Shown here piece by piece: positions 5,821 through 64,000 of a stretch of DNA of 64,000 nucleotides (position 1 is its first letter; each line of letters starts with the position of its first letter). This DNA is from Candidatus Auribacterota bacterium. Lineage in GTDB: Bacteria > Auribacterota > JAFGBW01. The notes under the pieces are model-generated. The model was not told where the DNA came from and made no database searches. It saw only the letters and a list, made by a program, of their open reading frames with translations. The DNA lies in NCBI GenBank assembly GCA_016932965.1, contig JAFGBW010000103.1:9998-73997 (forward strand), written 5' to 3'. A program made the position numbers and the translations under genes.

Positions 5821-8172
5821 TCAGATTTCTTCCAGGAAGCGGTATATTTCCTGTGCTTCGATTTTAAACATGTTTTTTGCGGCTGAAAATTCCAGGACAG
5901 GCAGATCATCGGTGTGAATCGGACCCGGCTGAATTTTGGTTTTGATCCTTTCTCCTGTCTGAATACGAAACCGGTTGAATTCCTCGAATGTTCCTGCCCC
6001 GATCTGATTCATTTCCTTTTTGTAATATAAATTCTGCATGATCGAATCGTATTTTTCTCTGATGAGAGGGGATTTTTTCTTTTTCCATCCGACCAGAAAA
6101 ACGTCTCCGTAATTGAATGAACCCCAGATTTCGAATGTCGGAAACACGGAGGAAAAGGTTCTCAGCGCGGTCTGGAAATCATCCAACGAGAGCTTATAAA
6201 CATGAATCCACTGGACAAGGACTCCCTTTTCAGTGAGAAGATGCTTGCAATCCTGGAAATATTCTCGTGTGAATAAATGCGCCACTCCTGAAACCCAGAT
6301 GTTGGAGGGTTCTGCGGATATAAAATCATATTTTTCCTTTTGCATCCGTATGTATCTTCTGGCATCTCCCAGAATCAGATGGATATTTTTAGATTGCAGC
6401 GCAGATAAATTGAAAGGTTCAAAAAAAGGCGATGCCTCCATGACGGCTTTTTCTATTTCGAGGCAGTCGAGATGCTGCACATGCCGGCAGAGAATCCCGG
6501 CGGTCACCCCGCTGCCGTAACCTACCACCAGGCCCCTTTCCATGCGGTTGCTCAGCATCAGAGGTAATAATGCAAGAAAAGACTGGGTGGGCATGTCACT
6601 TTCGAAAAAATCACCAACGGAAGCATCCACTTTTCCGTCAATGACCAAGGCGGTGTTGAGATTGCTTTTAAGCACCGCTACGGAACTGATCAGTCCGTGC
6701 TTGCACCATAATGTTTTGGATGCTGTTTTGCTTTTTTTATTTTTTTTGGCATATTGATAATGAGGATTGTCGCTTAAATATCGGGGATTTTGTTGAACCA
6801 CGCCTGAGTATGTGCCGGAATAGAACCCGGTTAAGATATCCTCTTTTTGGGAAAGAGAAAATTGTTTCCATAGAAAGAAAATGCCGAGAATAAAAAGCAG
6901 GTGATTGGTTGTGAGTTTTTTGCCAAAAGGAACGGGGGCAACCAGAATCATGATGACCCAATGTATGGCCGCAGCGATCCATATGGCCTTAAACGGGCCT
7001 GTTTTCGCCATGAACCAAAAACCAGTCGATAGGGCGCCTGCTATAGCTCCCAGGGTATTCACGCAGTATGCCAATCCCACGCTTTTTTCGTCAGGCTCGC
7101 CTTTTTTCGGAACCAAAGAGCAAAGCAATGGAAAAGAAGCTCCGATGAAAAAGGCAGAAGGAGCCATGATCATAAAAAGAAGGATGAATTCAGCCAAAAT
7201 GACTTTCCAGTAGATGCCGTGCGTATACTCAAAGAGAGCCTGGGTGATGAGGGGAATACGCAATGCAAAAAAAATGAAAATGGAGGCAGCCAGAAAAATT
7301 TTTGTCTGAAGATCGCTTAAGATCATTTTCTGTTCTACGGTATCAGTGCCGGTTTTACGTTTGATCCATGCGGCCCCCAGTCCAAGCCCCAGAAGAAAAG
7401 TGAACAGGATCAGAGAAAAGGTATAGGTCGAGGAACCGAAAGAAAAATTCAGCGCCCTGCTCCAGGTTATTTCATAAAGCATGGTGCAAAATCCCGCGAG
7501 AAAAAGACCGGCGAGGATTTTTACGTTGACCGCTTGACTATCTGAAGACCGGGAAATGAGACGTTCGGAAGAGGAGGTGTTTTCCCGTATTTTTAGAAAG
7601 AGGAAAAAGAGGAATAAATTGACTGAAACAGCTATACCCAGGGTATGCTGCAGGCCTATGCGACTGATTAAAAAATAACCGGAGACAAGGATGCCTGTCA
7701 CGGCGCCAAACGTGTTGATCACGTACAGGTTGGAAAGAATGCGCAAAGGGGGATTTTCTTTCTCATGGAGGAAAGACTTATACAACACAGGGAAAGTGCC
7801 TCCCATGGCAACGGTAGGGGGCAAGATACAGAGAGTGCAGATCAGCAGTTTGAACCCAAAATCCAGAAAGTCGTTTTGAAGACAGAACTGATGAGCAAAA
7901 GGGAGAAAGTAGATGGAAAATAGTCCGAAAAATCCAACCAGACCTTCTAATAATCCATAACAGAACAAGGGCCTTTTGGAGAACGGCATATGGTTTCCAA
8001 TCCATATTGATCCTGCTGCCAATCCTCCCATAAACAGTCCCAGAACAATGCTTTGGGCATATACCGTGGCCCCGAAAATGAGTGCAAGCATTCTGGACCA
8101 GACGACTTCATAGATGAGAGCTGCGAATCCGGAAAGGAAAAATGCTGTGAAAATGAGAGGAACACGTTTCAT
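5821..8172 (-). CDS. Fused MFS transporter / spermidine synthase-like protein
   Basis: The N-terminal 480 residues contain about 12-14 membrane segments and two copies of an MFS-like opening: GFAALIYEVVWSRML near the start and GFCTMLYEITWSRAL near residue 235. The C-terminal 300 residues form a spermidine-synthase-type Rossmann fold, with GLVVGYGSGVTAG as the nucleotide-binding loop, DCLEIEKAV as the acidic strand and LGDARRY further on. This two-part architecture is a known family of uncertain substrate; the synthase half often lacks proof of aminopropyl transfer. I chose ATG at 8172 over an upstream in-frame TTG (8190) because AAGG lies 9 bases before the ATG. An arginine decarboxylase gene 3.3 kb away would supply agmatine, the usual polyamine precursor, but a link is only inferred. 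Confidence 0.85.
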   Translation of the reverse strand: MKRVPLIFTAFFLSGFAALIYEVVWSRMLALIFGATVYAQSIVLGLFMGGLAAGSIWIGNHMPFSKRPLFCYGLLEGLVGFFGLFSIYFLPFAHQFCLQNDFLDFGFKLLICTLCILPPTVAMGGTFPVLYKSFLHEKENPPLRILSNLYVINTFGAVTGILVSGYFLISRIGLQHTLGIAVSVNLFLFFLFLKIRENTSSSERLISRSSDSQAVNVKILAGLFLAGFCTMLYEITWSRALNFSFGSSTYTFSLILFTFLLGLGLGAAWIKRKTGTDTVEQKMILSDLQTKIFLAASIFIFFALRIPLITQALFEYTHGIYWKVILAEFILLFMIMAPSAFFIGASFPLLCSLVPKKGEPDEKSVGLAYCVNTLGAIAGALSTGFWFMAKTGPFKAIWIAAAIHWVIMILVAPVPFGKKLTTNHLLFILGIFFLWKQFSLSQKEDILTGFYSGTYSGVVQQNPRYLSDNPHYQYAKKNKKSKTASKTLWCKHGLISSVAVLKSNLNTALVIDGKVDASVGDFFESDMPTQSFLALLPLMLSNRMERGLVVGYGSGVTAGILCRHVQHLDCLEIEKAVMEASPFFEPFNLSALQSKNIHLILGDARRYIRMQKEKYDFISAEPSNIWVSGVAHLFTREYFQDCKHLLTEKGVLVQWIHVYKLSLDDFQTALRTFSSVFPTFEIWGSFNYGDVFLVGWKKKKSPLIREKYDSIMQNLYYKKEMNQIGAGTFEEFNRFRIQTGERIKTKIQPGPIHTDDLPVLEFSAAKNMFKIEAQEIYRFLEEI

Positions 8173-8601
8173 AGTGTCAAACCTTATCAATTGAGATCAT
8201 TTCAAACAAGCATGAAGGAGTTAAAATCACTCGTGTCCGGTTTATTCTTTATCTGGAGATGACATTCATCATCAATGGCTTTAATTCATTTAATGTGTTT
8301 TTGAATTCAGGATCGAGAATCGAGAATTGTTCCGGCCCTCGGCCTCCATCCCTAACGGGAGTCCGAACGATAAGGGTGAAGCGTGAAGCAATCTTATGTC
8401 CGGCTTTGTTTTATTTTTAATCAGGCCCTATATTTTATAGTTTTTCATGCTATTTCTTTTATTTTAAACCGGACATTGATGAGTTAAAATATAATTATCG
8501 TGTCTTTTGTTCTCCAAATCAGCTAAAGTCAGTTTTGGACTATTGGCTCATCATACAAAAACCTGCTGACATGCTGGCGGAACGATTTTGTTGCAGTAGA
8601 A
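8173..8601. other. 429-bp divergent intergenic region with an imperfect inverted repeat
   Basis: There is no credible coding sequence. Two arms, ATGTCCGGCTTT (about 8396) and AAACCGGACAT (about 8465), are complementary with one mismatch and flank an AT-rich spacer; a third GTCCGG copy lies near 8239. It may carry the promoters of the two divergent genes. No confident -10/-35 pair was identified. Confidence 0.4.
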
Positions 8602-49529: not shown

Positions 49530-49913
49530 GTGGGCTCCTCAATAATCTGCTTGTGATGTAATGGGTTCTGGTTTCCCTGCAGTTTCTTCTGCTGTCTGCA
49601 AAAATAATGATGAAAAATAATAAAGCCTTTCAGGAGATTCAAGATAAATCCTTTAACTAACCTGCATCTTTCTTAACATCATGCTATTACAGCCTGCAAT
49701 TTCTTGCTGCAAGCCTCGTTTCTCGAAATTATTTAGGCATAATATGTCCAATATTGCTTCCTCGTGAAATCGTTTCAGCTTAAGCTTTCACGGCGGATTG
49801 AGATGCTTCATTACGAAGATATCATGTGATGTGTGGATTACATACCTCAGATTCCGGGACAGTATGGATATAAATGGCAATCGCCAGTCGGGTTTTCTTA
49901 TCCTTTTATTGTT
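49530..49913. other. 384-bp gap upstream of lysA
   Basis: There is no gene, no dispersed repeat and no lysine riboswitch pattern that I can recognise. It contains short complementary runs around GCAATTTCTTGCTGC (about 49695). The lysA promoter presumably lies here. Confidence 0.4.
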
Positions 49914-50543
49914 TTACCATTGACTGGGACGAATATTGATAAGAATAAAAAAGAATAAATAGGAAAGGAGTTCGTAGAGTTCAGTATAATAATAGGCAAC
50001 ATAGCTTTTTTCATACAGAATAAGAGAGAGACAGTTTCCGAGATTAATTCCAAAAAATATGCAGATTTTAACCATGTCAAGAGGGGGAATCCCTGCTATT
50101 CTCAACATGTTGCGATCATACAGGTTAAATAATGCGTAGAGTATAAATACTGCTATCATTATTCTTTCAAGCTGTTTTTTTACTATGTTGTGAATATTTA
50201 TTTCGTGATAGACATTATATTTAATAAAGAATGCCGGACTTTGAATGTGAAATATGCTTTGTCCATAATTTATTTCTTCGAGGAAAATGAAGACAAATCC
50301 AATACCTGCACCGAGGAAGAAGAGACGATACTGTCTCCAGCCGATTTGTCGGCTTCTTATAAAACAGGAAAGGGCAGTCAGCAGCAATAATACTGCCTGC
50401 AGGTTTTCTACAAGATGATGTTCTCGAAAGCAATCCGGATTGAAAAAATACAGGACGTGCAGAAGTAAAAAACCGGACCCCAGTATAACTCCCAGAGAAA
50501 TGTTCTTTTTTTTTAAGGCGTTTTGCGCCATTTCAGTTTTCAT
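49914..50543 (-). CDS. Hypothetical multi-pass membrane protein
   Basis: The product has 209 residues and about six membrane helices. HHLVENLQAVLLLLTALSCF and FIFLEEINYGQSIF resemble a small uncharacterised membrane family with an EE-x-x-x-GQ motif. The region upstream carries a decayed copy of its C-terminus. No function can be proposed. It begins the A+T-richer part of the window. Confidence 0.75.
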   Translation of the reverse strand: MKTEMAQNALKKKNISLGVILGSGFLLLHVLYFFNPDCFREHHLVENLQAVLLLLTALSCFIRSRQIGWRQYRLFFLGAGIGFVFIFLEEINYGQSIFHIQSPAFFIKYNVYHEINIHNIVKKQLERIMIAVFILYALFNLYDRNMLRIAGIPPLDMVKICIFFGINLGNCLSLILYEKSYVAYYYTELYELLSYLFFFILINIRPSQW

Positions 50544-50606
50544 GAGGTCTAATTTGGTAAATGGTTTTGATTTTCCTTTATACAGGGAATGAATTCAGCG
50601 GTTTTT

Positions 50607-50765
50607 TCACCCTTGTCTGGGTGGGGTGTTGATAAGGATCACCAAGAATAAATAATAAAGAAATCCTGTGATTTCAAAATAAAAATCTCCGACTACATTC
50701 ATACTATATGCCAAAGCACAGATAGTATCATGATAAATGTTGTTTCCGATTAGATTAATGAGGTC
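50607..50765 (-). pseudogene. Remnant of a second copy of the upstream membrane protein (C-terminal part)
   Basis: The minus-strand frame reads ...YSMNVVGDFYFEITGFLYYL and then FLVILINTPPRQG and stop. This parallels the C-terminus of the neighbouring gene (LYELLSYLFFFILINIRPSQ and W). A TGA lies just before it in frame and no N-terminal part remains. It is a relic of a tandem duplication. Confidence 0.65.
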
Positions 50766-50850: not shown

Positions 50851-52302
50851 TTATCGGCATGCTTCCGGCTTTTTAATATACAGGTCATAAAGATTTTTCA
50901 GTATCAGAAGAAAACCATTCCAGTATTCCCTTGGACGAATATTTCTGATTGTAAAAAGATGCCGATAAATCATGATGGGTCTGAAATAAAATTGTAAAAA
51001 AGCTTTTTTTTGGGAACGGATGAGTTTCTGCGGAGTCATTCCATCCGGAGTGAAGACCACTTTCTCCGCTGAAGGAGGATAGGATGAAAAACAGATCCAG
51101 GGTAGTCCATTTGTTTTTTTTCTGATTTTTTGATCTTCATACGCTGCCGTTCCAGGAAAGGGAACAAACAAATTGAATTTGGCATAATCCAATCCCATTT
51201 TTTTTGACGCCTCTATCGTTGCCATGATTTCTTCTTCTGTTTCTGTCGGGTTTCCGATGATAAAAAGACCATATAAAAAGATTCCGCATTTTTTTACCAT
51301 GTCCGCGGCCTTGATTGAATCCTGAACGGTAAATCGTTTGTTTAAAATTTTTAATATCCTGTCTGAACCGGACTCAAAACCGATCTGGATTTTGGTGCAT
51401 CCAGCTTTTTTCATGAGTTCAAGAAGCTCTTCATCCAAGAGATCAGGTCTGGTTTCTGTTGTCCAGACGATTTTAGACGGAACATCTAAGCGGATGAGTT
51501 CGTTACAGAATTCAATGGCCTGGTCCCTGTATACGGGGAAATTAGCATCTGAGAAGACAAAACCATCCACTCCGAACCGGTCGTGACACCATAACATTTC
51601 AGAAATAACGTTTTCAACAGAACGTCTTCTCACCTGATTGCCCAATTCCTGATTGCAGAAAATACAATGGAAAGGGCAGCCCCGGTTGAACAAAAGAGGA
51701 AGATTCAGCCGGCCTCCTGGGGTCACTTCAGGCCGGGGTTTGTATTTTTCCAGGGGCAGAATATCCCATGCGGGAAAAGGAATGGAATCCAGATCCTGAA
51801 TCAGGGGCCTTTCCGGATTTCGAATGGGGTTGCCTTTATCCTGATAAGTAATCCCTTTCACATCATCAAGGCTTTGTTTGTTTTCAAAATGGCATACCAG
51901 ATCCAGCAGGGTTTTCTCCCCTTCCCCGTGTACAATCACATCCGCAATGCCCTTAGAAATAAAATCCTTTGCAAAATAATCCGCGTGTCTATGCCCCAGG
52001 ACGATTTTTATTTCAGGAAAATGTTTCCGGATTTCTTTTGTTAGAAAAACAGTCTGATCCGCCAAAGGTGTCAGACACGATATTCCGATCATTTCCGGAG
52101 AATAACTGCGGATGTTTTCCATGATTCCCTTTAAGCCGAGTTTTTCGACGTAATCATCAATGATTTTGACTTCATGTCCGTATTTTTTCAGGTAGGAAGC
52201 AAGATAAGCAAGGCCGATGACAGGAACCGGGGCAAAAAATTTTTCATAATAGGTAAATTCGGATATGGAATAGTAAAAATGATTGATGAGGAGTATTTTC
52301 AT
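50851..52302 (-). CDS. B12-binding-type radical SAM protein
   Basis: The product has 483 residues. The N-terminal 150 residues are a cobalamin-binding-type Rossmann domain (MKILLINHFYYS..., PVIGLAYLASYLKKYGHEV, IGISCLTPLADQTV). The radical SAM core has the cysteine motif NRGCPFHCIFCNQ near residue 215, with GFVFSDANF and GFESGSDRILKILNKR later. Typical reactions of the class are methylation or rearrangement of unactivated carbons, but the substrate is unknown. It is divergent from the next radical SAM gene (95-bp gap). Confidence 0.92.
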   Translation of the reverse strand: MKILLINHFYYSISEFTYYEKFFAPVPVIGLAYLASYLKKYGHEVKIIDDYVEKLGLKGIMENIRSYSPEMIGISCLTPLADQTVFLTKEIRKHFPEIKIVLGHRHADYFAKDFISKGIADVIVHGEGEKTLLDLVCHFENKQSLDDVKGITYQDKGNPIRNPERPLIQDLDSIPFPAWDILPLEKYKPRPEVTPGGRLNLPLLFNRGCPFHCIFCNQELGNQVRRRSVENVISEMLWCHDRFGVDGFVFSDANFPVYRDQAIEFCNELIRLDVPSKIVWTTETRPDLLDEELLELMKKAGCTKIQIGFESGSDRILKILNKRFTVQDSIKAADMVKKCGIFLYGLFIIGNPTETEEEIMATIEASKKMGLDYAKFNLFVPFPGTAAYEDQKIRKKTNGLPWICFSSYPPSAEKVVFTPDGMTPQKLIRSQKKAFLQFYFRPIMIYRHLFTIRNIRPREYWNGFLLILKNLYDLYIKKPEACR

Positions 52303-52397
52303 GGTCTCAATATCATTGTTTTGATTTCATTTTTTTCTATTAAAGGATAAAATTACATCATGTTAATTCAATTTCAGGTTATTTTCAACAGCCAACC

Positions 52398-53834
52398 ATG
52401 AAAAAAATGTCAACTGTTCTCATGATGGCGCCCTGCAGACGCATGCGATACAACATAAGCGATTTGTATCCTCTGCCGCGTCTGGGAATCGGATCTATCT
52501 CGGCTTTTTTAAAAGAGGCGGGATACAATCAGACAAAGATCTGGGATATCATCGCGGAAAAAAAGTGGATACCGGAAATATTAGAAGCTTTTAAAAACGG
52601 GGTATGTCCGGATCTGTTGGGAATCAGTGCGACGCTTTTAAGCATGAAGGAGGCTTTTGAAATTGCTGAATCAGTCAAAAATCAATTTCCTCATATCCAT
52701 ATTGTGTTAGGCGGGCCCGGAGTCAGTTTTCCCGCTGAAGTTTTATTTGAATACGGCAAAGGTGTGGATTTTTATATCCGGGGGGAAGGCGAAGAATCGT
52801 TTGTGCAATTAATCCGATGCCTGGATACCATGGCGTCGGATTTATCCTCAGTCCCCGGGCTTATCTGGAAAAATCAGCAGGGGAAAATCATAGAAAATCC
52901 ATCAGGTAAATTCAGGGATCTTGATGACGGAATCATGAGCGATTATTCATCCATGCCCATGCAGAAATATCAGCTTCATCCCCCTATGGGGATATATCCT
53001 CCTGCAGTCATATTGGAAACAGCCCGGGGGTGTTCTTATTCATGCACATTCTGCTGTATTCCCAGGAAGGTTCGTTTTAAGAATCCTGTACTGGTGGAAA
53101 AAGAAATCATCCGGCTGAAGAAACAATTTGGAATCAATGAAATACATTTTGTGGATCCCACGTTTACTCTTGATTCTGCAAGGACTGAAGAGATGACCGG
53201 AAGAATACAGAAGTTAGACATCAAATGGTCATGCAAGACCCGGGTGGATTTGACGGATTTCTCTCTTTTAAAAAAAATGGCTGATTCAGGCTGTTATCTT
53301 ATTTCCTTTGGCGTGGAATCAGCCGCTGAATCCATTCTGAATGATCTGGATAAGAAAATCATGATCAGCCAGACAAATGAGACATTCATGAATTGCCGTT
53401 CATTGAGAATACGCACCGCGGCCTATCTGATGATTGGAAATCCGGGCGAGACGGATGATACGGTTAAATTGAATATTCAATTCGTCAGACAACTTCAGCC
53501 GGACTATGTCTTATATGGAATCCTTCAACCTGATCCGGCCAGTCAATTGACCCATGACATGATCAGAAAAGGATTTTTTTCAGAAAAGGATTTATACCGG
53601 TATTATTTATCGGACGAAGACAATTATTTCCAGGATCACACGGTTTGCGGGCTTCCGCTCAAGACGGTTCAGGATTGGATCAGGAAGGCAAGCAGGGGTT
53701 TTTATCTTCGTCCGGGATATGTTGTTAGGAGGCTTACTGATTTGAGAAGTATTCAGGACCTTATAAATCTGGGAGCAGGCGGTCTGACATTCATGAAAGA
53801 TTTTATGGGATTGGGACGCCTTTGGAAACAATGA
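52398..53834 (+). CDS. B12-binding-type radical SAM protein
   Basis: The product has 478 residues. The N-terminal half is a B12-type domain (YPLPRLGIGSISAFLKEAGY, LLGISATLLSMKEAF, IVLGGPGVSFPAEVL, FYIRGEGEESFVQL). The radical SAM motif is ARGCSYSCTFCCIP near residue 212, followed by IHFVDPTFTLD and SFGVESAAESILNDLDKK. Its 3' end overlaps the next gene by 4 bases (ATGA). It probably works together with it on the same substrate. Confidence 0.93.
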   Translation: MKKMSTVLMMAPCRRMRYNISDLYPLPRLGIGSISAFLKEAGYNQTKIWDIIAEKKWIPEILEAFKNGVCPDLLGISATLLSMKEAFEIAESVKNQFPHIHIVLGGPGVSFPAEVLFEYGKGVDFYIRGEGEESFVQLIRCLDTMASDLSSVPGLIWKNQQGKIIENPSGKFRDLDDGIMSDYSSMPMQKYQLHPPMGIYPPAVILETARGCSYSCTFCCIPRKVRFKNPVLVEKEIIRLKKQFGINEIHFVDPTFTLDSARTEEMTGRIQKLDIKWSCKTRVDLTDFSLLKKMADSGCYLISFGVESAAESILNDLDKKIMISQTNETFMNCRSLRIRTAAYLMIGNPGETDDTVKLNIQFVRQLQPDYVLYGILQPDPASQLTHDMIRKGFFSEKDLYRYYLSDEDNYFQDHTVCGLPLKTVQDWIRKASRGFYLRPGYVVRRLTDLRSIQDLINLGAGGLTFMKDFMGLGRLWKQ

Positions 53835-55123
53835 ATTCAAAACCGAAAATTCTTCTGCTTCATCCTCCTGCCTCAAAAAAGAGGCGATATCAGCTGGACG
53901 GGTACTGCAGCCAGCCGCAAAAAGGCCCTTTCCGATGGCATCCGCTTGACTTCTGCGCCTTTGCTTCTAAGTTATCCCGGGAAGCGGACCTGGAAATCCT
54001 GGATTTGGGTATTTCTTCCTGTCATGATTTTAATGCCAGGCCCTTGGCGTATGATTTTATCATAGGTCTTATCGGTGCCTATGGGTGGGATGACCAGCTG
54101 CTTTTCTGGAAAGAGATCTTGAAAAAAGGGGTCCCTGTCTTTTTAAGCGGTGATATCGCCAGGTACGAACCGCAGTTTGTCTTTGAACATCTCCCTAATC
54201 TTGGCGGGATCATTCCTGAACTGTCTTTGCCTCCCGCTCTATCTGATTTATCTGACACTAACAGTTCATTCATCTGGCGTCCTGGTAGAAAGGAATATTC
54301 CTTGCCTTCACTCAAAGAACCTTTTTCAATCGGGATTCAGAATTTTAATTTGTGGAAGCATTCTTTGTATCATCTGCCTTTCAATACAGGTCATCCTTTT
54401 GCAAGCATCATCACCCAGGTTGGGTGTCCGTATCATTGTGATTATTGCATCCTGAGCACTTATCCGTCTGCCAAAAGGGATTTAAATGAAGTTGAAGAGG
54501 AGCTTGAATCACTCAAAAAACAGGGAGCAAAGCATGTCTATATCAGGGACGCGACATTGAACAGTTCACAAAAACACCTGGAAGCGGTTTGTGATCTGAT
54601 GAAAAAAACAGGACTTCCATGGAATGCCTTTGTTCATACCCGCGGAATAGGGAAATTTTCAAAAATATTGAAAGAATCCGGCTGCATAGTTCTGCAGCTG
54701 GGAATCGATTCGCCTGATCAGGAAACCCTGAGAAGAAAAAACAAAATACCAGCAAATGCAGAAGAAGAAATTCATTTACTTCAGAAGGAAAAGATTTCCA
54801 CGGCAGGACACTTCATTTACAGATTGGAAGATAATCCTTTACCCCCTCAATCTATTGCAAGGTACGCGGACGAAATCGGGTTGAATTGGTTCACGCTTAC
54901 TCCCTTCATGATCAGACCCGGAATGACATCATGGGATCGAAAAGAACTATCAGTCATCAGTACGATGGATTCATCTATCGAAAGACTGATTCTGAAGACT
55001 AGTCTGTGGTTTTATAGTCGTCCTTCCCGTGTATTCAGACTCATCCGGATCTTTTTCAGACATCCGATATTTTCTTTTTTAAGTTTAATGAATTTATTGA
55101 TGAAGGATAAATACTTGAAATAA
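53831..55123 (+). CDS. Radical SAM protein with degenerate N-terminal B12-like domain
   Basis: The product has 430 residues from the ATG at 53831. The N-terminal 180 residues begin KILLLHPPASKKRRYQLDGY and keep only part of a B12-type fold. The cysteine motif is VGCPYHCDYCILSTYP near residue 200. Later strands read HVYIRDATLN and LQLGIDSPDQETLRRKNKI. The overlap with the upstream gene and the similar C-terminal layout suggest a coupled pair. Substrate unknown. Confidence 0.88.
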   Translation: MNSKPKILLLHPPASKKRRYQLDGYCSQPQKGPFRWHPLDFCAFASKLSREADLEILDLGISSCHDFNARPLAYDFIIGLIGAYGWDDQLLFWKEILKKGVPVFLSGDIARYEPQFVFEHLPNLGGIIPELSLPPALSDLSDTNSSFIWRPGRKEYSLPSLKEPFSIGIQNFNLWKHSLYHLPFNTGHPFASIITQVGCPYHCDYCILSTYPSAKRDLNEVEEELESLKKQGAKHVYIRDATLNSSQKHLEAVCDLMKKTGLPWNAFVHTRGIGKFSKILKESGCIVLQLGIDSPDQETLRRKNKIPANAEEEIHLLQKEKISTAGHFIYRLEDNPLPPQSIARYADEIGLNWFTLTPFMIRPGMTSWDRKELSVISTMDSSIERLILKTSLWFYSRPSRVFRLIRIFFRHPIFSFLSLMNLLMKDKYLK

Positions 55124-55274
55124 TAAGTTATCTTTTCAGCATGAATAAATGGATGGGAGCTTAAAATGAGAGCCGTTTGTCGGAAATAAGTTTTATGCAT
55201 CTGTTATATTCAATTCAAGTTGTATGACATGATTATTTGACGGAATCGAAATCATCAATTTCAGGCAGGGTTAA

Positions 55275-56015
55275 ATGAGTAAGCCAGAATATAATTTTTT
55301 TTGTTATGTCTTCAATCTGTTTCCATTACCCCTGATTGTAATTAATGTCATCATGGCTGCGTGGCTGGTTTTTAATTTCTATATTCTTTTCCGGTGGTCC
55401 CGATATCTTATCATGGAAAGAACCAGTCGAAAAACCGGAATGCATTTGCTGGGTTACGCCTGTCTTTTTGGAATTCTTTCAAAAGTATTTTCATGCCGCT
55501 ATGGTATGCTGGGTTTTCATTTATATGAACTGATTTTTTATTACTTATCGCTTGGATTCCATGTGGCAGCTTTTTATTTCCTGATTAAGAGTTCATGGCA
55601 TTCCTTAAAACCGTGGCTTTTAACATTAGGGAATTATTTTTTCGTATATCATTTCTTATTTTTTCCTATTGTGTTCTGGATGATGTTTACATGGATCATT
55701 CCTTCAGTTGATTTTCACCGGTTAAACGACGGGGTCTATCGTGGTAAAAGCAACAGCATTGCAAATCATACTATTTCTGAAGTGACGGTCAAGGAAGGCA
55801 CTCTTGTTTCGATAAGATGGATACAAAAAGGTTGTTCTGAGTATGGCATGGAAGCCTATGAGCAATTGCCCGGGCGTATTCTCAGACTTCAGTCATTGGA
55901 TGTTGATGGAATCAGCGGGGCTACGCGTACATCTAACCTGATAAAAAGTTCCGTTGGAGATGCCTTGCAGAATAGCACTCATCATCTCGATCAAAGTGAA
56001 AATAGAAAAGACTAG
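55275..56015 (+). CDS. Membrane protein with C-terminal FMN_bind domain
   Basis: The product has 246 residues. Four or five membrane helices (residues 15-150) contain several His (GMHLLG, GFHLYEL, GFHVAAF, VYHFLFF), possible heme ligands. The C-terminal domain DGVYRGKSNSIANHTISEVT ... DGISGATRTSNLIKSSVGDAL has the SGATxTS motif of the FMN_bind family, where the Thr is covalently flavinylated in NqrC/RnfG-like proteins. It may carry electrons across the membrane to a neighbouring enzyme. AGGG lies before the ATG. It is followed by a further membrane gene after 37 bases. Confidence 0.82.
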   Translation: MSKPEYNFFCYVFNLFPLPLIVINVIMAAWLVFNFYILFRWSRYLIMERTSRKTGMHLLGYACLFGILSKVFSCRYGMLGFHLYELIFYYLSLGFHVAAFYFLIKSSWHSLKPWLLTLGNYFFVYHFLFFPIVFWMMFTWIIPSVDFHRLNDGVYRGKSNSIANHTISEVTVKEGTLVSIRWIQKGCSEYGMEAYEQLPGRILRLQSLDVDGISGATRTSNLIKSSVGDALQNSTHHLDQSENRKD

Positions 56016-56052
56016 CGGAAGAATATTGGGAAGGTCAGGAAGAAGACTATAG

Positions 56053-57567
56053 ATGAAAAGAATATTCAATATATTTTTTATATACCCGGTTCTTTCAGTA
56101 CTTGCCTGTTTTTTGATTCTCCCGTTTTTCTTTTCAAGAAATGTAGCTTTTCTCTTTTTTATATGGGCAATTATTATATTTGTATTTCTTTTATTTTCAT
56201 CGATTTCATCCTTACGAAGGATTCTGTTCGATTACGCGAAATTCAGAATCCTTTTAAAATTCAATATTTTTTTATCTATTTTATCTGTTCCCTTTTTTTT
56301 ATATTCATTTTTATTTATATCTAGATTTTTCTTTGTATGGCCCTGCACATTGGGTATCTATGTATCACTTTTTCTGTTTCTGCTTTGGATTCAATTGGGC
56401 TCAAAAAAGTTTAAATCATATTTTTTTCTTTTTCTTACACTCATTCAACTTCTTTTTAATTTGGCAATGGGTGTCTATTTGCCAGAATATTTCTGGCCAG
56501 ACTATAGATGCATCTATCATCCCTCGTTTTTATCTACGAAGCCGGTTTTTTGTCAGAAGGGCCTGAAAAAAATATTTTACGTTTTGGATTTTTTATCTGC
56601 AGATAAACAATTTTATCTATTGAATAATAAAAAAGAGAAATATTACGATCCGTATAATATTTTATACTTTCCAGATAATTCTCTTATTGCGTCTCATGAA
56701 AAGTATAGAAAATTAGTAAAATTTCATCTAACAAAACATGAGCTTGGCATGCTTGATATAAGCTCTACTAATATGTTTACGGAGGATATGAAAACATATC
56801 TTTTTACCGGGAGTTCCTGGGATAAACCTGATGGAAATGAAAGTTTCTACAAAATAGATGCAAGGAACTTACAAGTTATCAACCAGTTCTCATTAAAGAG
56901 TTCCAGTAAAACACTCGAAAATTTAGTCTTCAACTTTAATAAGAATTCTAATTTTTTAACAGGGGTTCAGATAGATAATGATCTATTTATTCTGACCATG
57001 AATGGAAAGCTCATCCAGATGAACGCTGATTCTGGTATGATCTATAATACTATTGATGTTCCTCAGCCCCTACCAGTTCAGTCTGCTTTCGATATTTCGC
57101 GTTATAAATGCTACTACATTACATGTCCTCAAATCAGCTTTTCATTAGATCTATTTAGTATCATCGAAATTGATTTAAAAACTTTTATCATTAAAAGAAA
57201 AGGGCGCCATTTTTGTTCATTATTAAAATATTTTTCAGATAAACAATGGTTGCTTTTATTGAACTCTTTCTCAGGCACCATTCAGATTTATGATGTAGTA
57301 TCCATGAACAAAATCAAAACCATTGATGGCGCATTTGCCTGTCGAGATTTTACCTTTGATAACAAACTGAAATACTTGTTTATTTCACATTATTTCTCAG
57401 GCATGGTTGATGTGGTTGATTTTCAAACATGCAAAGTTCTGTATTCTTTTTATGCAGGGCCTCTTATACGTACTCTTTGCTTTTCTGATGCAACAAAGCG
57501 GATGTATATTGGATCAGCTTTAGGAATTTTTGAATTCGATCCTTCCGTAGCAGGAATCACTCTATAA
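56053..57567 (+). CDS. Membrane protein with C-terminal propeller-like domain
   Basis: The product has 504 residues; AGGAAG lies 11 bases upstream of the ATG. Four or five membrane helices fill residues 10-150. The remainder is a series of strand-rich repeats (LGMLDISSTNMFTEDMKTYL, LIEIDLKTFIIKRK-like, MVDVVDFQTCKVLYSFYAGP, MYIGSALGIFEFDPS) like a YVTN-type beta propeller. It is among the most A+T-rich genes of the window, in contrast to the suf region. Function unknown; it may be a periplasmic binding or docking domain. Confidence 0.75.
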   Translation: MKRIFNIFFIYPVLSVLACFLILPFFFSRNVAFLFFIWAIIIFVFLLFSSISSLRRILFDYAKFRILLKFNIFLSILSVPFFLYSFLFISRFFFVWPCTLGIYVSLFLFLLWIQLGSKKFKSYFFLFLTLIQLLFNLAMGVYLPEYFWPDYRCIYHPSFLSTKPVFCQKGLKKIFYVLDFLSADKQFYLLNNKKEKYYDPYNILYFPDNSLIASHEKYRKLVKFHLTKHELGMLDISSTNMFTEDMKTYLFTGSSWDKPDGNESFYKIDARNLQVINQFSLKSSSKTLENLVFNFNKNSNFLTGVQIDNDLFILTMNGKLIQMNADSGMIYNTIDVPQPLPVQSAFDISRYKCYYITCPQISFSLDLFSIIEIDLKTFIIKRKGRHFCSLLKYFSDKQWLLLLNSFSGTIQIYDVVSMNKIKTIDGAFACRDFTFDNKLKYLFISHYFSGMVDVVDFQTCKVLYSFYAGPLIRTLCFSDATKRMYIGSALGIFEFDPSVAGITL

Positions 57568-57685
57568 TATGGGATGATCAGCATAATCAGTTAGGTGGAC
57601 TGTCCTCTCGGGAAGAAGGATACTCACATCTTCTTCTTTCCATCTGGGCTAATCCAGGAGACATATATAATTTATTATTTATAAA

Positions 57686-58024
57686 TTAACCAGTTGGACA
57701 TGGTTTGAACCTGGGTGACCTTCCCCCCAAAAGAATAGGGATATTCATTTGATTTTTTATTTTTTTTGAAAGACGCAGCGCCCAGTGATAATTATTAGCA
57801 AATACTTGAAAACCTGTGAGATCGGGTTTGGATTGTTCGAGCTTTTCTAAAATAATTTTCTCAAAATTAAAAATTCTGGCTAGAGAATTGTTTTTAACCA
57901 CAGCATCATCAAAAAGTCTCGGATCTATTATTACATCAGTTGAGAATCCATGACTTTTTAAGACTGCAGAAAGATATTCAATGCCCAATGACTCATTTTC
58001 ACTTCCAATAAAACAAATCTTCAT
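57686..58024 (-). CDS. Orphan B12-binding-type domain, truncated radical SAM gene
   Basis: The product has 112 residues. MKICFIGSENESLGIEYLSA ... GFQVFANNYHWALRLSKKI ... NIPILLGG is the N-terminal Rossmann part of a B12 radical SAM protein. It stops after the LLGG turn with an unrelated tail (RSPRFKPCPTG); no radical SAM core follows. A run of six C on the plus strand (57723 region) offers a frameshift, but the alternative frame also stops soon (KVTQVQTMSNWLIYK). It is either a pseudogene or a free domain. It is the last gene of a minus-strand operon, 28 bases after the UbiA gene. Confidence 0.75.
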   Translation of the reverse strand: MKICFIGSENESLGIEYLSAVLKSHGFSTDVIIDPRLFDDAVVKNNSLARIFNFEKIILEKLEQSKPDLTGFQVFANNYHWALRLSKKIKNQMNIPILLGGRSPRFKPCPTG

Positions 58025-58052
58025 TTTTTATCTTCCGATGTTATTTCATCGC

Positions 58053-58919
58053 TTAATTTATATAAAATTCCACAGCCAAGCTAATCCCTAGCACAATGGA
58101 ACACCAGCGCATTCCCAAGCGCATTTTGTCTGAATCAAGCGACTTTTTAAAGAATAACCAGTAAGAAATAAAAATAAGTGCTGAATAAAGAATAGAAGCC
58201 GACAATCCAATGACTCCCATGAAACCGATTTGAAAAAGAAAAAGGGAATAGAAAATAAATAATAAACCAATTACCGTGATCAGATAAAAGGTATGGGTTA
58301 TTCCAAACTTTACTGGAGTGGTTAATATTTGCGCCATCTTATCATCTTCTGTGTCCTCAATCTCATGATACAATTGCATGATGATAATGATAAAAGAAAC
58401 CATCAAAGCAATGGGAAAAGCTGCTTTCCAATATGAAACGACATTCTTCACTCCAAGAAAAACCATGGGCGAAAAAAGAAAAATATTCATTGCGCTTCCT
58501 ATAATAGGAAAACGTTTCATCCGAAACGGAGGAACAGAATACAGGAAGGCAAAGAGGAAAAGGAACAAAAGAATAATGAAATGAGAAACAGAAATAACCA
58601 ACCCGCTGCAAAAAGACGGAAAAACAGGAAGAAAAATCAGAAAAAGATGGCAAGCTTTTTCTGATTTGATTTCATTAAAAAAAGGATTTTTATTCTGATG
58701 ATTTATATCAATGAATCTATCTGTCCAATTATTAATGGAAAAAGCAAAACAGAGATACAAAGCGCAACCGGAAACAAGTAAAAAAAGCTGGGGATAATTC
58801 AATTCTTTGAATTTGCAATGACAAAGCAGAGGAATGCCCAGGAAATGGATCCAGTCTTTCACACGATAAAATGACAAAAGATTAGGAATTAAAGAAACTG
58901 ATGTCATCATATTAATCAT
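58053..58919 (-). CDS. UbiA-family prenyltransferase
   Basis: The product has 288 residues from the ATG at 58919, which has CAGGAA eight bases upstream; a TTG at 58973 overlapping the radical SAM stop is an alternative. It has eight or nine membrane helices. The first aspartate motif is NNWTDRFIDINHQNKN, the second YHEIEDTEDDK, with YSVPPFRMKR between, all typical of UbiA. It attaches a prenyl chain to an aromatic or other acceptor. With the radical SAM and B12-domain genes it forms a three-gene minus-strand operon, which suggests prenylation and radical chemistry on one molecule. Confidence 0.85.
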   Translation of the reverse strand: MINMMTSVSLIPNLLSFYRVKDWIHFLGIPLLCHCKFKELNYPQLFLLVSGCALYLCFAFSINNWTDRFIDINHQNKNPFFNEIKSEKACHLFLIFLPVFPSFCSGLVISVSHFIILLFLFLFAFLYSVPPFRMKRFPIIGSAMNIFLFSPMVFLGVKNVVSYWKAAFPIALMVSFIIIIMQLYHEIEDTEDDKMAQILTTPVKFGITHTFYLITVIGLLFIFYSLFLFQIGFMGVIGLSASILYSALIFISYWLFFKKSLDSDKMRLGMRWCSIVLGISLAVEFYIN

Positions 58920-58969
58920 TTGGGATTCCTGTATGTCATGATCATTTTCCTTAAGGCAACTGTTTTTAA

Positions 58970-59983
58970 TCAAGGTTTCGAATAAAACTGCCTGGATGCA
59001 TTGAATATCGATTCAAGATGCATTTTTCCAAGATAGTCCATTTCTCTGAAAGGAGTGATTTTGCATGGATGAAAGCATTGATGATGCTGACAATGCTCCA
59101 GTGCTGCTTTGAATCCGTCTTTATCGATGTTTTTTGGCGAGAATGAATCCCGGAAGGAGTAACAGGGATAGAGGGATCCGTCCGGATACAGATAAACATA
59201 AAATTTTCCGGCTAAACAATTAAAAGGAATATCATCCACAACAGATAAATTTTTCAGAAAAGTAAAAGAATTGCCTACCAACAGAGGATTTTTCTTCTTA
59301 GCTGAAATCAATATGGATTCAGCCTGTTTTAATTCAGCCGTTGCAGGTTTGAATATCTGCATTTTTTCGTTATCATTTATGGAATCATGTACAATACATA
59401 GGGGTTGAAAAAAACACGTCATTTTGTATTGTTTCCCAATATCCAGAATGAAAGGGATGTGCGAAATATTTTCCTTTGTAAGAACGGTTATAGTCATTTT
59501 TTTTATTTTTATATTATGAACAAGCCGAATAGCATCAAGAGTGTTTTGGAATGAGGTTTCCCCTCGGAATTGATCGTGAATTTTTTCTGGGCCGTCCAAA
59601 CTCAATACAATCTCATCAAGTAATTCTGTGATCCAAAGGCAGTTTTTTAGTTGAATTCCGTTGGTATTCAAACTGGTTAATAAGCCCAATGTTTTTGCAT
59701 GGCGCAATATTGCTGTGCTCTCTTGAATTTTCATCAATGGTTCGCCGCCGCTGATGCCTAAATGAATAAGTCCCCGTTTCTGAAGGAAAAAAATAAAATT
59801 ATTTATTATTTCTATATTGATTTCTGAATCCTGTTTTTGAGGAACAACACAATATTCACATTTTAAATTGCATTTATTCGTCAAAAAGATACTTAAAAAA
59901 AGAGGGGAGCGGCCCCGGAAACCGCCATGGATTAGCCAGCGATATAGCTGGCATAAATAAGAGATATTTTTATGAAGGTTCAT
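58970..59983 (-). CDS. Radical SAM protein with SPASM/twitch-like C-terminus
   Basis: The product has 337 residues. The core motif is TNKCNLKCEYCVVP near residue 37, then ISGGEPLMK and SLDGPEKIHDQFRG. The C-terminal part has cysteines in FNCLAGKFYVYLYPDGSLYP and C, then HCQHHQCFHPC, typical of auxiliary-cluster domains. It may act on a peptide or protein or on a small molecule. It is the first gene of the operon with UbiA, whose possible TTG start overlaps its stop. Confidence 0.9.
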   Translation of the reverse strand: MNLHKNISYLCQLYRWLIHGGFRGRSPLFLSIFLTNKCNLKCEYCVVPQKQDSEINIEIINNFIFFLQKRGLIHLGISGGEPLMKIQESTAILRHAKTLGLLTSLNTNGIQLKNCLWITELLDEIVLSLDGPEKIHDQFRGETSFQNTLDAIRLVHNIKIKKMTITVLTKENISHIPFILDIGKQYKMTCFFQPLCIVHDSINDNEKMQIFKPATAELKQAESILISAKKKNPLLVGNSFTFLKNLSVVDDIPFNCLAGKFYVYLYPDGSLYPCYSFRDSFSPKNIDKDGFKAALEHCQHHQCFHPCKITPFREMDYLGKMHLESIFNASRQFYSKP

Positions 59984-60380
59984 TAATTATATTTACATAT
60001 TAATCCATTCTGTTTTTTAATAAAAAGTTATTACAATAAACTTATGCCAGAAACAAGATATTTTAATCTTGATTGAGAAAGTGCTGAAGGAAAAATAAAG
60101 AAAAAGAATGCCAACAAGAAGCAAAGACATTTTTCCCGGACCAGTCTTGCATCACTGTCATATATCAAAGGATTAGTATTCTAAAACCCCTAGTCTGATT
60201 ATTAAGAAAAGTCAATTATTCACACCTTGATGATTGCCTGTATATTCTGACTGCTCTTTTTATTTGTTCTGGTATGACAATAGAGCGGATGATAGATTCT
60301 AGAATATATTTTTTAAAATGGAGAGGCAGGGTATCCGCAACTGCTTCCGGAATGATCATTAAAAAAAAGGGATTCCTGTA
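59984..60380. other. 397-bp AT-rich divergent gap
   Basis: No RNA gene, dispersed repeat or terminator was recognised. It lies between divergent radical SAM operons and probably holds their promoters. A small minus-strand open frame is listed separately. Confidence 0.4.
60216..60359 (-). CDS. Possible small protein or gene remnant
   Basis: A 47-residue frame starts MIIPEAVADTLPLHFKKYIL and ends RQSSRCE. It is basic and helical. It could be a leftover C-terminus of a radical SAM protein or a genuine small protein. The ribosome binding site is poor and nothing confirms translation. Confidence 0.25.
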   Translation of the reverse strand: MIIPEAVADTLPLHFKKYILESIIRSIVIPEQIKRAVRIYRQSSRCE

Positions 60381-61619
60381 ATGATTCCCGTTGGGCAATA
60401 TAAAATTTTATTAATAAACAGTCTTTATAAGAGCAAAAACAAAGAAACGATTTATCCGGTAGGCCTTTATTATCTTTCCTTGTTTTTGAAAAAGCATTTT
60501 CCCGATCATTATCTGCAAATCTTTGATATGAATTTATCAAAGAATCCTTATCAGGATCTGGAACGAATCCTTTCAAAATATAATTTTCAAATCACCGCCA
60601 TCTCTTACAGAAACCTTATCAGACATTCTTTTTTATCCAAGTTGGCCACAAAAACAATTGATTTTGAAAAAGTCACTCGAATCTGTAAACAAATCCGTCC
60701 CGACATGAAAATCATTATAGGCGGTCCTGCTTTTGCGATTGACCCGGAAAAAGTCTTAAAAAGGTTCGGAAATATTGATTACGGTTTAGTAGATAATGTT
60801 GGAGGCATGTTTGCTGAATTGATTGAATCAAACTTCAATGATCATTCGGTAAAAAATGTTTATTACAGGAACAAGGATCAGATTATTTTTTCCGGATATC
60901 GGTCGGATGATTCATTTGAAAATGCCATAACCGGTTTTACCGTTTTTCCGGGCTTAAATGCCGGAGATTATGATGAAATCGGGATACAAACCAAAAAAGG
61001 CTGCATCTTTCAATGTAAACACTGTCCGCAAAAATATCTCGAAGGCAATAAAATAAGGTTGAGATCAGTCAAAACAGTCATAGATGAAATATCTTTTTAT
61101 TTGGAAATGGGTGTAAGAAATTTTTATTTTACAGATTCGGTTTTTAATTATCCCAATCATTACTGCATGGATCTGCTGCAGGAGATTATCAATAAGAGCC
61201 TTAACATTTCGTGGTCTGCCTTTTTAAAGGCGAGTTATATTGATGATGATCTTGCTGTTTTGTTATTGAAATCGGGCTGCAGGAAAATAGACATTTCGGC
61301 CGAAAGCGGCGATGATAATATTTTAAGATACCTCAACACAAATGAAACAGTTGATTCCATCATTAATGCGGCTGAAATACTGAAGAACTACCCCGCTATC
61401 AGAATCTGCTATTATTTTTTATTAGGAACAGAAAAAGAAAATTTTTCTTCATTAATAAAAACAATGAAATTGGCGCTAAGATTGAGAATGAAATACAAAA
61501 GTGAAATTTATTTCTCAACATTTAATCCCATTAATAAAACAGAAGTCAATGTCAAGTGTCATAATTTCATCATCAACACCCTATCAGCATGTATTTCCGT
61601 ATTTAACCAACTGATATAG
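60381..61619 (+). CDS. B12-binding-type radical SAM protein
   Basis: The product has 412 residues. The N-terminal domain (YKILLINSLYKSKNKETIY, PVGLYYLSLFLKKHFPDHYL, MKIIIGGPAFAI) is a B12-type Rossmann fold. The cysteine motif is KKGCIFQCKHCPQKY near residue 210; NFYFTDSVFNYP and DISAESGDDNILRYLNTN follow. The C-terminus is shorter than in the other cluster enzymes. It stands alone on the plus strand, convergent with the SPASM gene (9-bp gap). Substrate unknown. Confidence 0.9.
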   Translation: MIPVGQYKILLINSLYKSKNKETIYPVGLYYLSLFLKKHFPDHYLQIFDMNLSKNPYQDLERILSKYNFQITAISYRNLIRHSFLSKLATKTIDFEKVTRICKQIRPDMKIIIGGPAFAIDPEKVLKRFGNIDYGLVDNVGGMFAELIESNFNDHSVKNVYYRNKDQIIFSGYRSDDSFENAITGFTVFPGLNAGDYDEIGIQTKKGCIFQCKHCPQKYLEGNKIRLRSVKTVIDEISFYLEMGVRNFYFTDSVFNYPNHYCMDLLQEIINKSLNISWSAFLKASYIDDDLAVLLLKSGCRKIDISAESGDDNILRYLNTNETVDSIINAAEILKNYPAIRICYYFLLGTEKENFSSLIKTMKLALRLRMKYKSEIYFSTFNPINKTEVNVKCHNFIINTLSACISVFNQLI

Positions 61620-61628
61620 TTTCAATAA

Positions 61629-62744
61629 TTACAAGCCAAATACAGTTGGAGGTATTTTATATTCTATATCGCAGAGGGGATCTTTCATTTTAAAATTTTT
61701 ATATTTTAAATAGGCATGAGTCCTGCACCCCCCTCCGCATTCAAATCTGTATTTACAGTCAGAACATTCCTCCGGCAAAATATGCCATTGATTGCGCAAG
61801 GATTTATATCTTTCCCATATTGATTCAATTTTTTCGTTCAGAATATTTCCTATTGTCAGATCTTCAGGGGCAAAAGAACAGGGTAATACATTCCCGTGGG
61901 TTGTGATAAACATGATCCGGTCATAATTCTGACAGCAGCTCCCTGTGATTTTACCTAAAATCCGGTTTGGAACGGGAATGATTTTTTTATCATATAGCCT
62001 GAATACCAAATCAGACCACTCTTTGGAGGTAATTTCAACTCCTTTGGTATAATCGTTGACAGGAAGACATCTTTCGATGATAAATCGAACCCGATGTTTT
62101 CTAAGCATCAGCATGAATTCTTCAACATAGTCATAATTGAGTTTTGTGACAGTAATAAAAATCGAGACAAAATATCTATTTTTTTTAAGTCTCAATATAT
62201 TATTGAATACCGTTTCGTATCCGTTTTCTTTTGCGCCTGTTATTTCAGAATATATTTTGTGATGGTCGAAATTAATATAAAACCTGGGTTTTTTTCTTAA
62301 TAAACGAAGTTGAGAGATAAAATGATCATCTATCAGGGTGCCGTTAGAACTGATGACCACATTTAAGTTTAATTTATCCAATTCGTTTAAAAACCAGAAC
62401 AGCTGTTTATGAAGGGTCGGTTCCCCTCCCAGAAGAAGAATGGATTCAACATCCAGCTTGTTTTTTGCTTCTTTGACAATTTCCAGCCATTGTTCAATTT
62501 TAATATCCTCGATATCACGATATGAATAACAATACCGGCAACGAAGATTACATAGGGAAGAAATGTGGATTCCCAGCATCTGAGGTTTATTTCCGTAAGA
62601 TTTTCTCCAGAGGTAGCGGGCCATTCTCAATAGCACGGGAATATCAAGGAGTTTTCCTGTAAAATGATAGACATAAAAACCCAAAATATTGTATTCAAAG
62701 AAATACCTGTAAAAAGACACGATCTTTTTGGCTAAAAATTTCAT
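61629..62744 (-). CDS. Radical SAM/SPASM maturase-like protein
   Basis: The product has 371 residues. The core motif is SSLCNLRCRYCYSYRD near residue 65, with LLGGEPTLHKQ following. The C-terminal SPASM domain is complete in appearance: CCQNYDRIMFITTHGNVLPC, then SDCKYRFECGGGCRTHAYLK. SPASM enzymes often modify peptides, including RiPPs, but act on other substrates too. It overlaps the U32 gene by 4 bases (ATGA), which shows a coupled pair. Confidence 0.92.
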   Translation of the reverse strand: MKFLAKKIVSFYRYFFEYNILGFYVYHFTGKLLDIPVLLRMARYLWRKSYGNKPQMLGIHISSLCNLRCRYCYSYRDIEDIKIEQWLEIVKEAKNKLDVESILLLGGEPTLHKQLFWFLNELDKLNLNVVISSNGTLIDDHFISQLRLLRKKPRFYINFDHHKIYSEITGAKENGYETVFNNILRLKKNRYFVSIFITVTKLNYDYVEEFMLMLRKHRVRFIIERCLPVNDYTKGVEITSKEWSDLVFRLYDKKIIPVPNRILGKITGSCCQNYDRIMFITTHGNVLPCSFAPEDLTIGNILNEKIESIWERYKSLRNQWHILPEECSDCKYRFECGGGCRTHAYLKYKNFKMKDPLCDIEYKIPPTVFGL

Positions 62745-63931
62745 TTGAATAGATCTCCGCGAACAAACAGGTTTTCGAGTTTCAGCTTATGATCTTTGAT
62801 TAATTCCAGGTCATGCCTATCAATCAGAATTGCTTCATCGGCAATTTTTTTGCAGATCAAACATTGATCGCAATCAGTTGTTTCACAATTGACTTTAAAT
62901 ATTTTTTCTAAATAACCATTGAGTTTTTCATTATTGATATAGGGTACAGGATATGGAGCTGACTTTAAAAATTGATACAATTTGTATACATTATATTTAA
63001 AAGGCTTAAAAAAATATAAAATTTTATTTAAAGAAAATTTTCTGTTTTTTGAATCACTTCCTGTGAAAATCGGCATCAATTCAGACAAATTTCCCGGATA
63101 AGCATTATCGGCATAGGCTTTCGTTATTTTGATAATCTTGTCGGGACTTAAAGTCCGATCGGTTATTTTGAAATGATGAATACCCAAATCCTGATAAGTT
63201 TTTAAATCTTCAGGCCTTATAAAATTGGATTTGATGATCAAATGAGGCGCCAGCAACCGGGAATATCTGCAGTCAAAAGTGTAATAATTTAAATAAGTAG
63301 ACTCCCTGACTTTACCGGACGAATGACTTTCCAGATTGGCGTGTTGATCCGTATTGACACAATGATATAAACAGCAGTTATTAACGATCAGTTGTAAAGG
63401 AATCGAAATGTTTTTTACGATCGATCCAAGTCTTTCCTTGTTTCTTAGAATATTATTGCTGAATAATGTTATTCTTGATGCTCCCAACTCCTGCCAATAT
63501 TTTGCTTTTTCCAGCGTCTCAATCCGGCAAAAAACCGAGGCATTGATTTTAAGATCGGGATAGTTTTTTTTAATCAATTTTGCCAGATAAGGATCCGACA
63601 CTGTTAAAGAGCTTACACCGGAATCGAGTAAATAGTCACATTTATCGAGGATAAAACGGACCCCTTTTTTGGAAAATTGAAGGCCGGAAGCACAATAATG
63701 ATTAAACAGATAATTAAAATTGATTTTCTTGGATTGGCACTTTTTTAAGAACGAAGACACTTGTTTCTTTGAAGCTTTAAGTAAAGTGATATCCGCTCTT
63801 CCGCCTCCAAAAAAATCGTTTGGATCTTTCCCGTAAAATTCAAATGAATCCAGAAACGTATTGATTTCAAATAATTTCATATCCCAGTTACACGGGATAG
63901 AAAATTTTTGTGTTGTTTGACTGTTTTTCAT
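62741..63931 (-). CDS. U32-family protein (peptidase U32 / UbiU-like)
   Basis: The product has 396 residues from the ATG at 63931; a TTG at 63943 is an alternative. LDSGVSSLTVSDPYLAKLIK, INASVFCRIETLEKAKYW and IVNNCCLYHCVNTDQHANLE, then SHSSG, follow the U32 barrel pattern N-x-C-L-x-x-C...H-x-N-x-x-S-H. The C-terminal cysteines (NCETTDCDQCLICKK) fit an iron-sulfur cluster as in UbiU/UbiV. U32 proteins include tRNA and quinone hydroxylation factors and peptidases. It is upstream of and coupled to the SPASM gene. Confidence 0.82.
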   Translation of the reverse strand: MKNSQTTQKFSIPCNWDMKLFEINTFLDSFEFYGKDPNDFFGGGRADITLLKASKKQVSSFLKKCQSKKINFNYLFNHYCASGLQFSKKGVRFILDKCDYLLDSGVSSLTVSDPYLAKLIKKNYPDLKINASVFCRIETLEKAKYWQELGASRITLFSNNILRNKERLGSIVKNISIPLQLIVNNCCLYHCVNTDQHANLESHSSGKVRESTYLNYYTFDCRYSRLLAPHLIIKSNFIRPEDLKTYQDLGIHHFKITDRTLSPDKIIKITKAYADNAYPGNLSELMPIFTGSDSKNRKFSLNKILYFFKPFKYNVYKLYQFLKSAPYPVPYINNEKLNGYLEKIFKVNCETTDCDQCLICKKIADEAILIDRHDLELIKDHKLKLENLFVRGDLFK

Positions 63932-64000
63932 GATGTTATTCAAATTGTTTCTTACGCTTTACGAATATTACAAAACCAGCATTTTAAAGCAATCTTTCTA

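Follow-up and report, generated by a model that had tools for sequence, protein, structure and literature searches.

The window analyzed here, 64,000 nucleotides of contig JAFGBW010000103.1 from a Candidatus Auribacterota bacterium (assembly GCA_016932965.1; whole-genome size, 3.14 Mb), carries a dense group of radical S-adenosylmethionine (SAM) genes near its right end. Open reading frame (ORF) calling and Pfam searches established eleven genes, A to K, at positions 50851 to 63943 (Table 1). A first-pass annotation, made by a model from the letters alone, had viewed them as a candidate undescribed pathway running off the right edge. The contig does stop exactly there, so that the assembly break cuts the locus and part of it may be missing; no overlap was found between the contig end and 15 other stretches of the same genome. 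Gene overlaps of exactly 4 bases, which the annotation had also reported, occur in three pairs (B/C, H/G and K/J). With its genes alternating between the strands, the locus comprises five or more transcription units (A; B-C-D-E; H-G-F; I; K-J). A promoter scan performed no better than on shuffled sequence.

Table 1. Genes of the radical SAM locus (lengths in amino acids [aa]; GC, G+C content)
Gene	Product	Position	Strand	Evidence
A	B12-binding + radical SAM, 483 aa, BchE/HpnJ-like	50851..52302	-	Radical_SAM 93 bits, B12-binding 67 bits; GC 41%
B	B12-binding + radical SAM, 478 aa, conserved core gene	52398..53834	+	Pfam
C	Radical SAM, 430 aa, without recognizable B12 domain, conserved core gene	53831..55123	+	Pfam 40 bits
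D	Membrane protein, C-terminal FMN_bind, putative flavin-attachment motif DGISGAT	55275..56015	+	FMN_bind 27.6 bits
E	504 aa, hydrophobic N terminus, propeller-like C-terminal repeats	56053..57567	+	Hydropathy; no Pfam family
F	B12-radical SAM gene truncated to B12-binding N terminus, probable pseudogene	57686..58024	-	Homology to full-length proteins
G	UbiA-family membrane prenyltransferase, both aspartate motifs intact	58053..58973	-	Pfam UbiA 90 bits
H	Radical SAM, 337 aa	58970..59983	-	Pfam 58 bits
I	B12-binding + radical SAM, 412 aa	60381..61619	+	Pfam
J	Radical SAM/SPASM, 371 aa	61629..62744	-	Radical_SAM 78 bits, SPASM 38 bits
K	U32 family, 400 aa, putative O2-independent oxidase, distinct clade	62741..63943	-	Peptidase_U32 49.5 bits

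The radical SAM genes A, B, C, H, I and J were all found where the first-pass annotation had placed them, scored above the Pfam Radical_SAM cut-off and contain the CX3CX2C motif. Its description of several of them as B12 or SPASM enzymes held for A, B and I, which join a B12-binding domain to the radical SAM core, and for J, the only protein with a SPASM domain, but not for C and H, whose Radical_SAM matches came without either domain in Pfam. Six of the 52 Radical_SAM domains of the genome thus fall inside about 11.5 kb. This density is more than chance, with six domains in 11.5 kb reached in 2 of 20,000 random placements (frequency, 1e-4) in a simulation that ignored contig breaks. Since pairwise identity among the six proteins is at most 27%, recent tandem duplication is not its cause.

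The NCBIfam models did not assign these enzymes to a described function. A scored 212 bits with BchE (curated cut-off, 481) and B 164 bits with HpnJ (cut-off, 578), the scores of A and B with this hopanoid-lipid enzyme being 159 to 164 bits. I reached 178 of 450 bits with BzaD and, as its second-best family, 171 of 360 bits with TIGR04072. Each score of A, B and I was thus less than half the curated cut-off of the equivalog. The best match of H was the PTO1314 family (73 of 306 bits), and the top scores of J and H came from peptide-maturase and related SPASM families, all far below cut-off. No named pathway passed the cut-offs of its family models. A and B resemble BchE/HpnJ-type enzymes in their B12-binding and radical SAM architecture and in scoring 159 to 212 bits with the best models; they differ in falling far below the equivalog cut-offs and in lying in a stretch without bacteriochlorophyll or hopanoid context. 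Similarly, I resembles TIGR04072, a ladderane-associated lipid-biosynthesis B12-radical SAM family, but its cluster contains no fatty acid synthesis genes. A, B and C have in common an FYxRP-type C-terminal tail.

The U32 protein K is the most distinctive member of the locus. Its domain is genuine (49.5 bits with Peptidase_U32; cut-off, 22.4), and its predicted fold agrees with the family: the structure model (predicted local distance difference test [pLDDT], 83; predicted template modeling score [pTM], 0.85) has a TIM barrel, and its top Foldseek match is the U32 protein 5d88 (E, 1e-11). Homologues were present in 19 of the 384 genomes sampled besides its own, none of them in the phylum of the window. 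In a tree with Escherichia coli UbiU, UbiV, TrhP and RlhA, the K homologues formed a separate clade (support, 96/93), and K grouped with none of UbiU, TrhP and RlhA; UbiV sits on a very long branch and its placement is unsure, and two weak matches (L065 and L066) fall inside the K clade. The cysteine plan also sets the clade apart. C169, C176 and C193, which belong to the iron-sulfur (Fe-S) cluster of UbiU, align with C191, C195 and C225 of K and are found in 14 to 15 of 15 members. K shares with UbiU/UbiV, TrhP and RlhA the Peptidase_U32 fold, and three of the four Fe-S cysteine positions align. Unlike them, it lacks the fourth core cysteine, its first spacing being CX3C against the reference CX6CX15CX3/4C, and it has an added C-terminal C-x4-C-x2-C-x2-C (C353, C358, C361 and C364) that occurs in 13 to 15 of 15 clade members; its clade also neighbors polyketide, lipid and radical SAM genes.

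These neighbors were examined in other genomes. K-clade genes lie next to type III polyketide synthase (PKS) and YceI genes in G199 and G111, next to acyl reductase and YceI genes in G085, G230 and G362, and next to B12-radical SAM genes in G357 and G136; in G269/G129 the B12-radical SAM gene is two genes away. In G170 and G306, which belong to one genus, the U32 gene is directly downstream of a fused chorismate mutase/3-deoxy-D-arabino-heptulosonate 7-phosphate (DAHP) synthase (L049:8618-11122 and L050:8585-10945), consistent with a local supply of prephenate. Ubiquinone precursors and RNA are the substrates of the U32 oxidases known so far. Published work on U32 oxidases describes O2-independent hydroxylation with prephenate implicated as the oxygen source (PMC6747719, PMC11574389). 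By analogy with these enzymes, K is probably an O2-independent oxidase of small, mostly hydrophobic molecules. It is conceivable, and we propose it with reserve, that its clade represents a new class of U32 oxidases with a three-cysteine core cluster and a second, C-terminal cluster, which would hydroxylate small lipophiles such as prenylated aromatics and type III polyketides without O2 and which here would be coupled to B12-radical SAM enzymes toward a lipid. Literature searches for U32 proteins with radical SAM, UbiA or type III PKS found nothing in the collection searched. Through its position next to polyketide, lipid and B12-radical SAM genes and, in one lineage, next to an enzyme expected to produce prephenate, the K clade, which has a cysteine plan of its own and which we regard as widespread, gives a definite starting point for testing how natural products might be hydroxylated without O2.

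Part of the locus recurs in distant bacteria. In G357, a genome of 5.3 Mb, a stretch of 9 kb holds the genome-wide best matches of C (C3:278763), F (C3:283294) and K (C3:287194) and, between them, a B homologue of 32% identity; C is 27% identical over 378 aa to its homologue there (L059). In G223, a distance of 2.5 kb separates the best C and F matches and a B homologue lies immediately next to F, so that B, C and F are contiguous, and in G269 matches of F, B and C span 21 kb of a single contig. B is 32 to 34% identical over its full length to its homologues in L059 and L070, with the common motifs ETARGCSY and EIHFVDPTFT. The query for the genome-wide B searches was the G357 protein, not B of the window. 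A metagenome-assembled genome (MAG) of Bdellovibrio sp. (L078) contains F- and C-type genes inside a cluster of eight radical SAM genes, and a contig profile scan with the B alignment, whose collection may lack the window's own record and its near relatives, returned six distant loci, with a comparable cluster only in this MAG. Other parts of the locus recur in G136, where an FMN_bind gene (36 to 39% identity to D) accompanies several B12-radical SAM genes and a K homologue, and in G274, where FMN_bind and several B12-radical SAM genes are likewise together. No clear counterparts of I and J were seen in the homologous clusters. The B, C and F group marks B12-radical SAM families without an assigned function that move as a set among distantly related bacteria; they, with K in part, and the distinct U32 clade are what we consider worth carrying forward.

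Two further observations were made at these loci. Upstream of the G136 cluster (L068:4892-12171), ORFs reading by eye as an acyltransferase, a LolA-like protein, a thioesterase and two phytoene-desaturase-like proteins were present, suggesting a lipid locus. Elsewhere in G357 (L074:3414-19808), eight further radical SAM genes occupy 17 kb, and such dense clusters recur in that lineage.

F had been taken for an orphan B12-binding domain, which proved incorrect. Its first ~105 residues are 34 to 37% identical to full-length B12-radical SAM proteins of 520 to 590 aa in G357 and G223, and over 109 aa it shares 45% identity with an intact protein of 489 aa encoded in its own genome. Its reading frame departs from the family after ILLGG, at a run of six G. 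The gap between F and E is only ~120 bp, and the radical SAM part is not in it. Judged by these comparisons, F is a truncated gene and not a stand-alone domain, and it is probably a pseudogene. The intact paralogue lies on another contig of the same genome (C39, L130:1424-4269); 2 bp after it comes a radical SAM gene, which within the locus matches the SPASM protein J best.

The UbiA, FMN_bind and U32 domains that had been called by eye are real, with 90, 28 and 50 bits in Pfam. The genome encodes four UbiA proteins, G among them. G shares with UbiA prenyltransferases the domain and the aspartate-rich motifs (NNWTDRFID, fitting NxxxDxxxD, and DTEDDK), but it scores below every UbiA equivalog cut-off. 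UbiA was dropped as a marker of related clusters, as no close G homologue was found among 59 genomes. A second cluster of UbiA and radical SAM/SPASM genes, of low GC (31 to 36%), is present on contig C106 of the same genome (L139:7413-16507), with genes for a flavin mononucleotide (FMN) oxidoreductase, an acyl carrier protein (ACP)-like ORF, a BioF/SPT-type aminotransferase, a lipid kinase, a ketoacyl synthase and a 3-beta-hydroxysteroid dehydrogenase (HSD)-type reductase. Its gene content suggests a lipid pathway, of a sphingolipid-like or another type.

The FMN_bind domain of D is 35 to 40% identical to G136 and G274 proteins that adjoin B12-radical SAM genes. Like the ApbE-flavinylated FMN_bind membrane proteins described previously (PMC8238504), D combines an FMN_bind domain with an SGAT motif, of the [ST]GAT type, and its genome encodes ApbE, in two copies; D may therefore be flavinylated, a putative modification. 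None of the five transmembrane electron-transfer modules of that study adjoins D, whose neighbors are radical SAM genes, and its text does not mention an association of FMN_bind with radical SAM. E had been called a propeller-like membrane protein. The C-terminal repeats are propeller-like and the N terminus is hydrophobic, but no Pfam family was matched; E matches other proteins weakly and over these repeats only. With homology limited to the repeats and a model too poor to be used (pLDDT, 41), it was dropped as a structural or homology lead.

Base composition divides the locus. Against a mean GC of 44.5% (standard deviation, 1.8) at the genes of positions 1 to 50 kb, A, B and C have 41 to 43%, D has 38% and E to K have 31 to 36%, giving a break at ~55 to 56 kb between two compositional halves. 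The phylum comparison covered the other 43 genomes, two order-mates included. K and E had no comparable homologue there, and G had a single match of 24% identity. From the low GC and this phylum comparison, we read at least the right half as a horizontal acquisition. An assembly chimera at the break was considered; it is possible but unlikely, as F and B/C, from opposite halves, adjoin in two other genomes. The locus is thus a mosaic with a partly conserved core and not a fixed pathway.

Our best explanation, offered tentatively, is that this mosaic belongs to an anaerobic-type specialized pathway for the O2-free tailoring of a hydrophobic, membrane-associated molecule, perhaps a prenylated one. 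The steps are given in a putative order. G would put a prenyl chain on a membrane acceptor. K would then hydroxylate the product by U32 chemistry, possibly together with the radical SAM protein J, whose gene overlaps that of K by 4 bases; by analogy with UbiUV and TrhP, prephenate would be the likely oxygen donor. The B12-radical SAM enzymes A, B and I and the radical SAM enzymes C and H might next catalyze C-methylation or oxidative ring or bond formation, and D, with covalent FMN, would couple the redox chemistry to the electron pool of the membrane. We favor lipid-like tailoring because of the FYxRP tail of A, B and C, the HpnJ scores of A and B, the flavin motif of D together with ApbE, and the UbiA protein. 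Support also comes from the lipid-type genes (ketoacyl synthase, ACP-like ORF and lipid kinase) of the second low-GC UbiA and radical SAM cluster, from the clustering of B with the C, F and K best matches in G357 and the contiguity of B, C and F in G223, and from the K clade, given its neighbors elsewhere, its three aligned cluster cysteines and the published U32 oxidase chemistry.

The surroundings of the homologues elsewhere raise another explanation, in which the substrate of the radical SAM enzymes is a glycan, either lipid-linked or at the surface, and the UbiA and U32 genes are unrelated neighbors. These surroundings are often rich in GT2, PMT_2, DegT aminotransferase, epimerase and methyltransferase genes, together with UDP (uridine diphosphate)-sugar dehydrogenases, around homologues of A, B, C, F and H, and an F homologue from the same phylum is included among those in glycan-type loci. 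We nevertheless consider a glycan somewhat less likely as the substrate, as no glycosyltransferase or nucleotide-sugar gene lies at 50.8 to 64 kb of the window and U32 and FMN_bind genes recur with B12-radical SAM genes in G136. Literature searches that paired B12-radical SAM enzymes with surface polysaccharides returned no report in the collection searched. The GC break, the truncated F, the alternating strands and the phylum comparison, in which K, G and E lack a close homologue, would also suit a recombination-prone island that gathered unrelated radical enzymes and no single pathway, A to C being old residents and E to K later arrivals. This island and the glycan reading are both serious rivals. 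The island seems rather unlikely, as F of the low-GC half neighbors B and C of the normal-GC half in G357 and G223, joined by K in G357. The two halves therefore share history, and the proximity of the C, F and K best matches in G357 is not chance.

That the locus encodes a variant of a named pathway is improbable. HpnJ, TIGR04072, BchE and BzaD, the top NCBIfam matches of A, B and I, would point to hopanoid, ladderane, bacteriochlorophyll or B12 lower-ligand synthesis, and UbiA with U32 is reminiscent of anaerobic ubiquinone synthesis (UbiUV). Yet all these scores stay under half of the cut-offs, K falls outside UbiU, TrhP and RlhA, and neither squalene cyclase, a Fab set, a chelatase nor UbiT was recognized among the genes of the stretch. 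A maturation locus for a ribosomally synthesized and post-translationally modified peptide (RiPP), in which J and H would serve as peptide maturases of the SPASM type, is highly improbable despite the families with which these two proteins score best. Those scores are far below cut-off, no convincing precursor-like small ORF was found in the intergenic region 59984-60380, and no peptidase/exporter pair is present.

Several observations weigh against a single lipid-tailoring pathway. The locus divides by GC into two halves and by strand into five or more transcription units. None of the homologous clusters was seen to include UbiA, and most C and F homologues elsewhere are scattered, apart from each other. 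Among 241 genomes, C matches were found in 25, F matches in 16 and both in 8; in 3 of these 8 genomes they share a contig and in 5 they lie on different contigs, a count blurred by fragmented assemblies. Three K-clade loci (L051, L052 and L058) have none of the partners cited above, and relatives of B, C and F often lie among glycosyltransferases, so that a glycan is almost as likely a partner as a lipid. The first-pass annotation had proposed neighborhood conservation as its own test: B, C and F, in part with K, stand together in 2 to 4 genomes, UbiA is not in these clusters, and C and F lie apart in 5 of the 8 genomes with both. Its observations were mostly right, with the corrections given above, and its interpretation as one undescribed pathway is partly supported, in that a real sub-set recurs but a single pathway of all genes, in a locus split by GC, stays hypothetical.

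Two features lie outside the eleven genes. At 1-8200, several large membrane ORFs read like GT-C glycosyltransferases, and a further protein reads as spermidine-synthase-like. Two stretches of 85 nucleotides (49909-49993 and 50602-50686) resemble each other at 71%; the first forms the 3' end of a 209-aa membrane ORF (49914-50543), of which the second may be a decayed copy.

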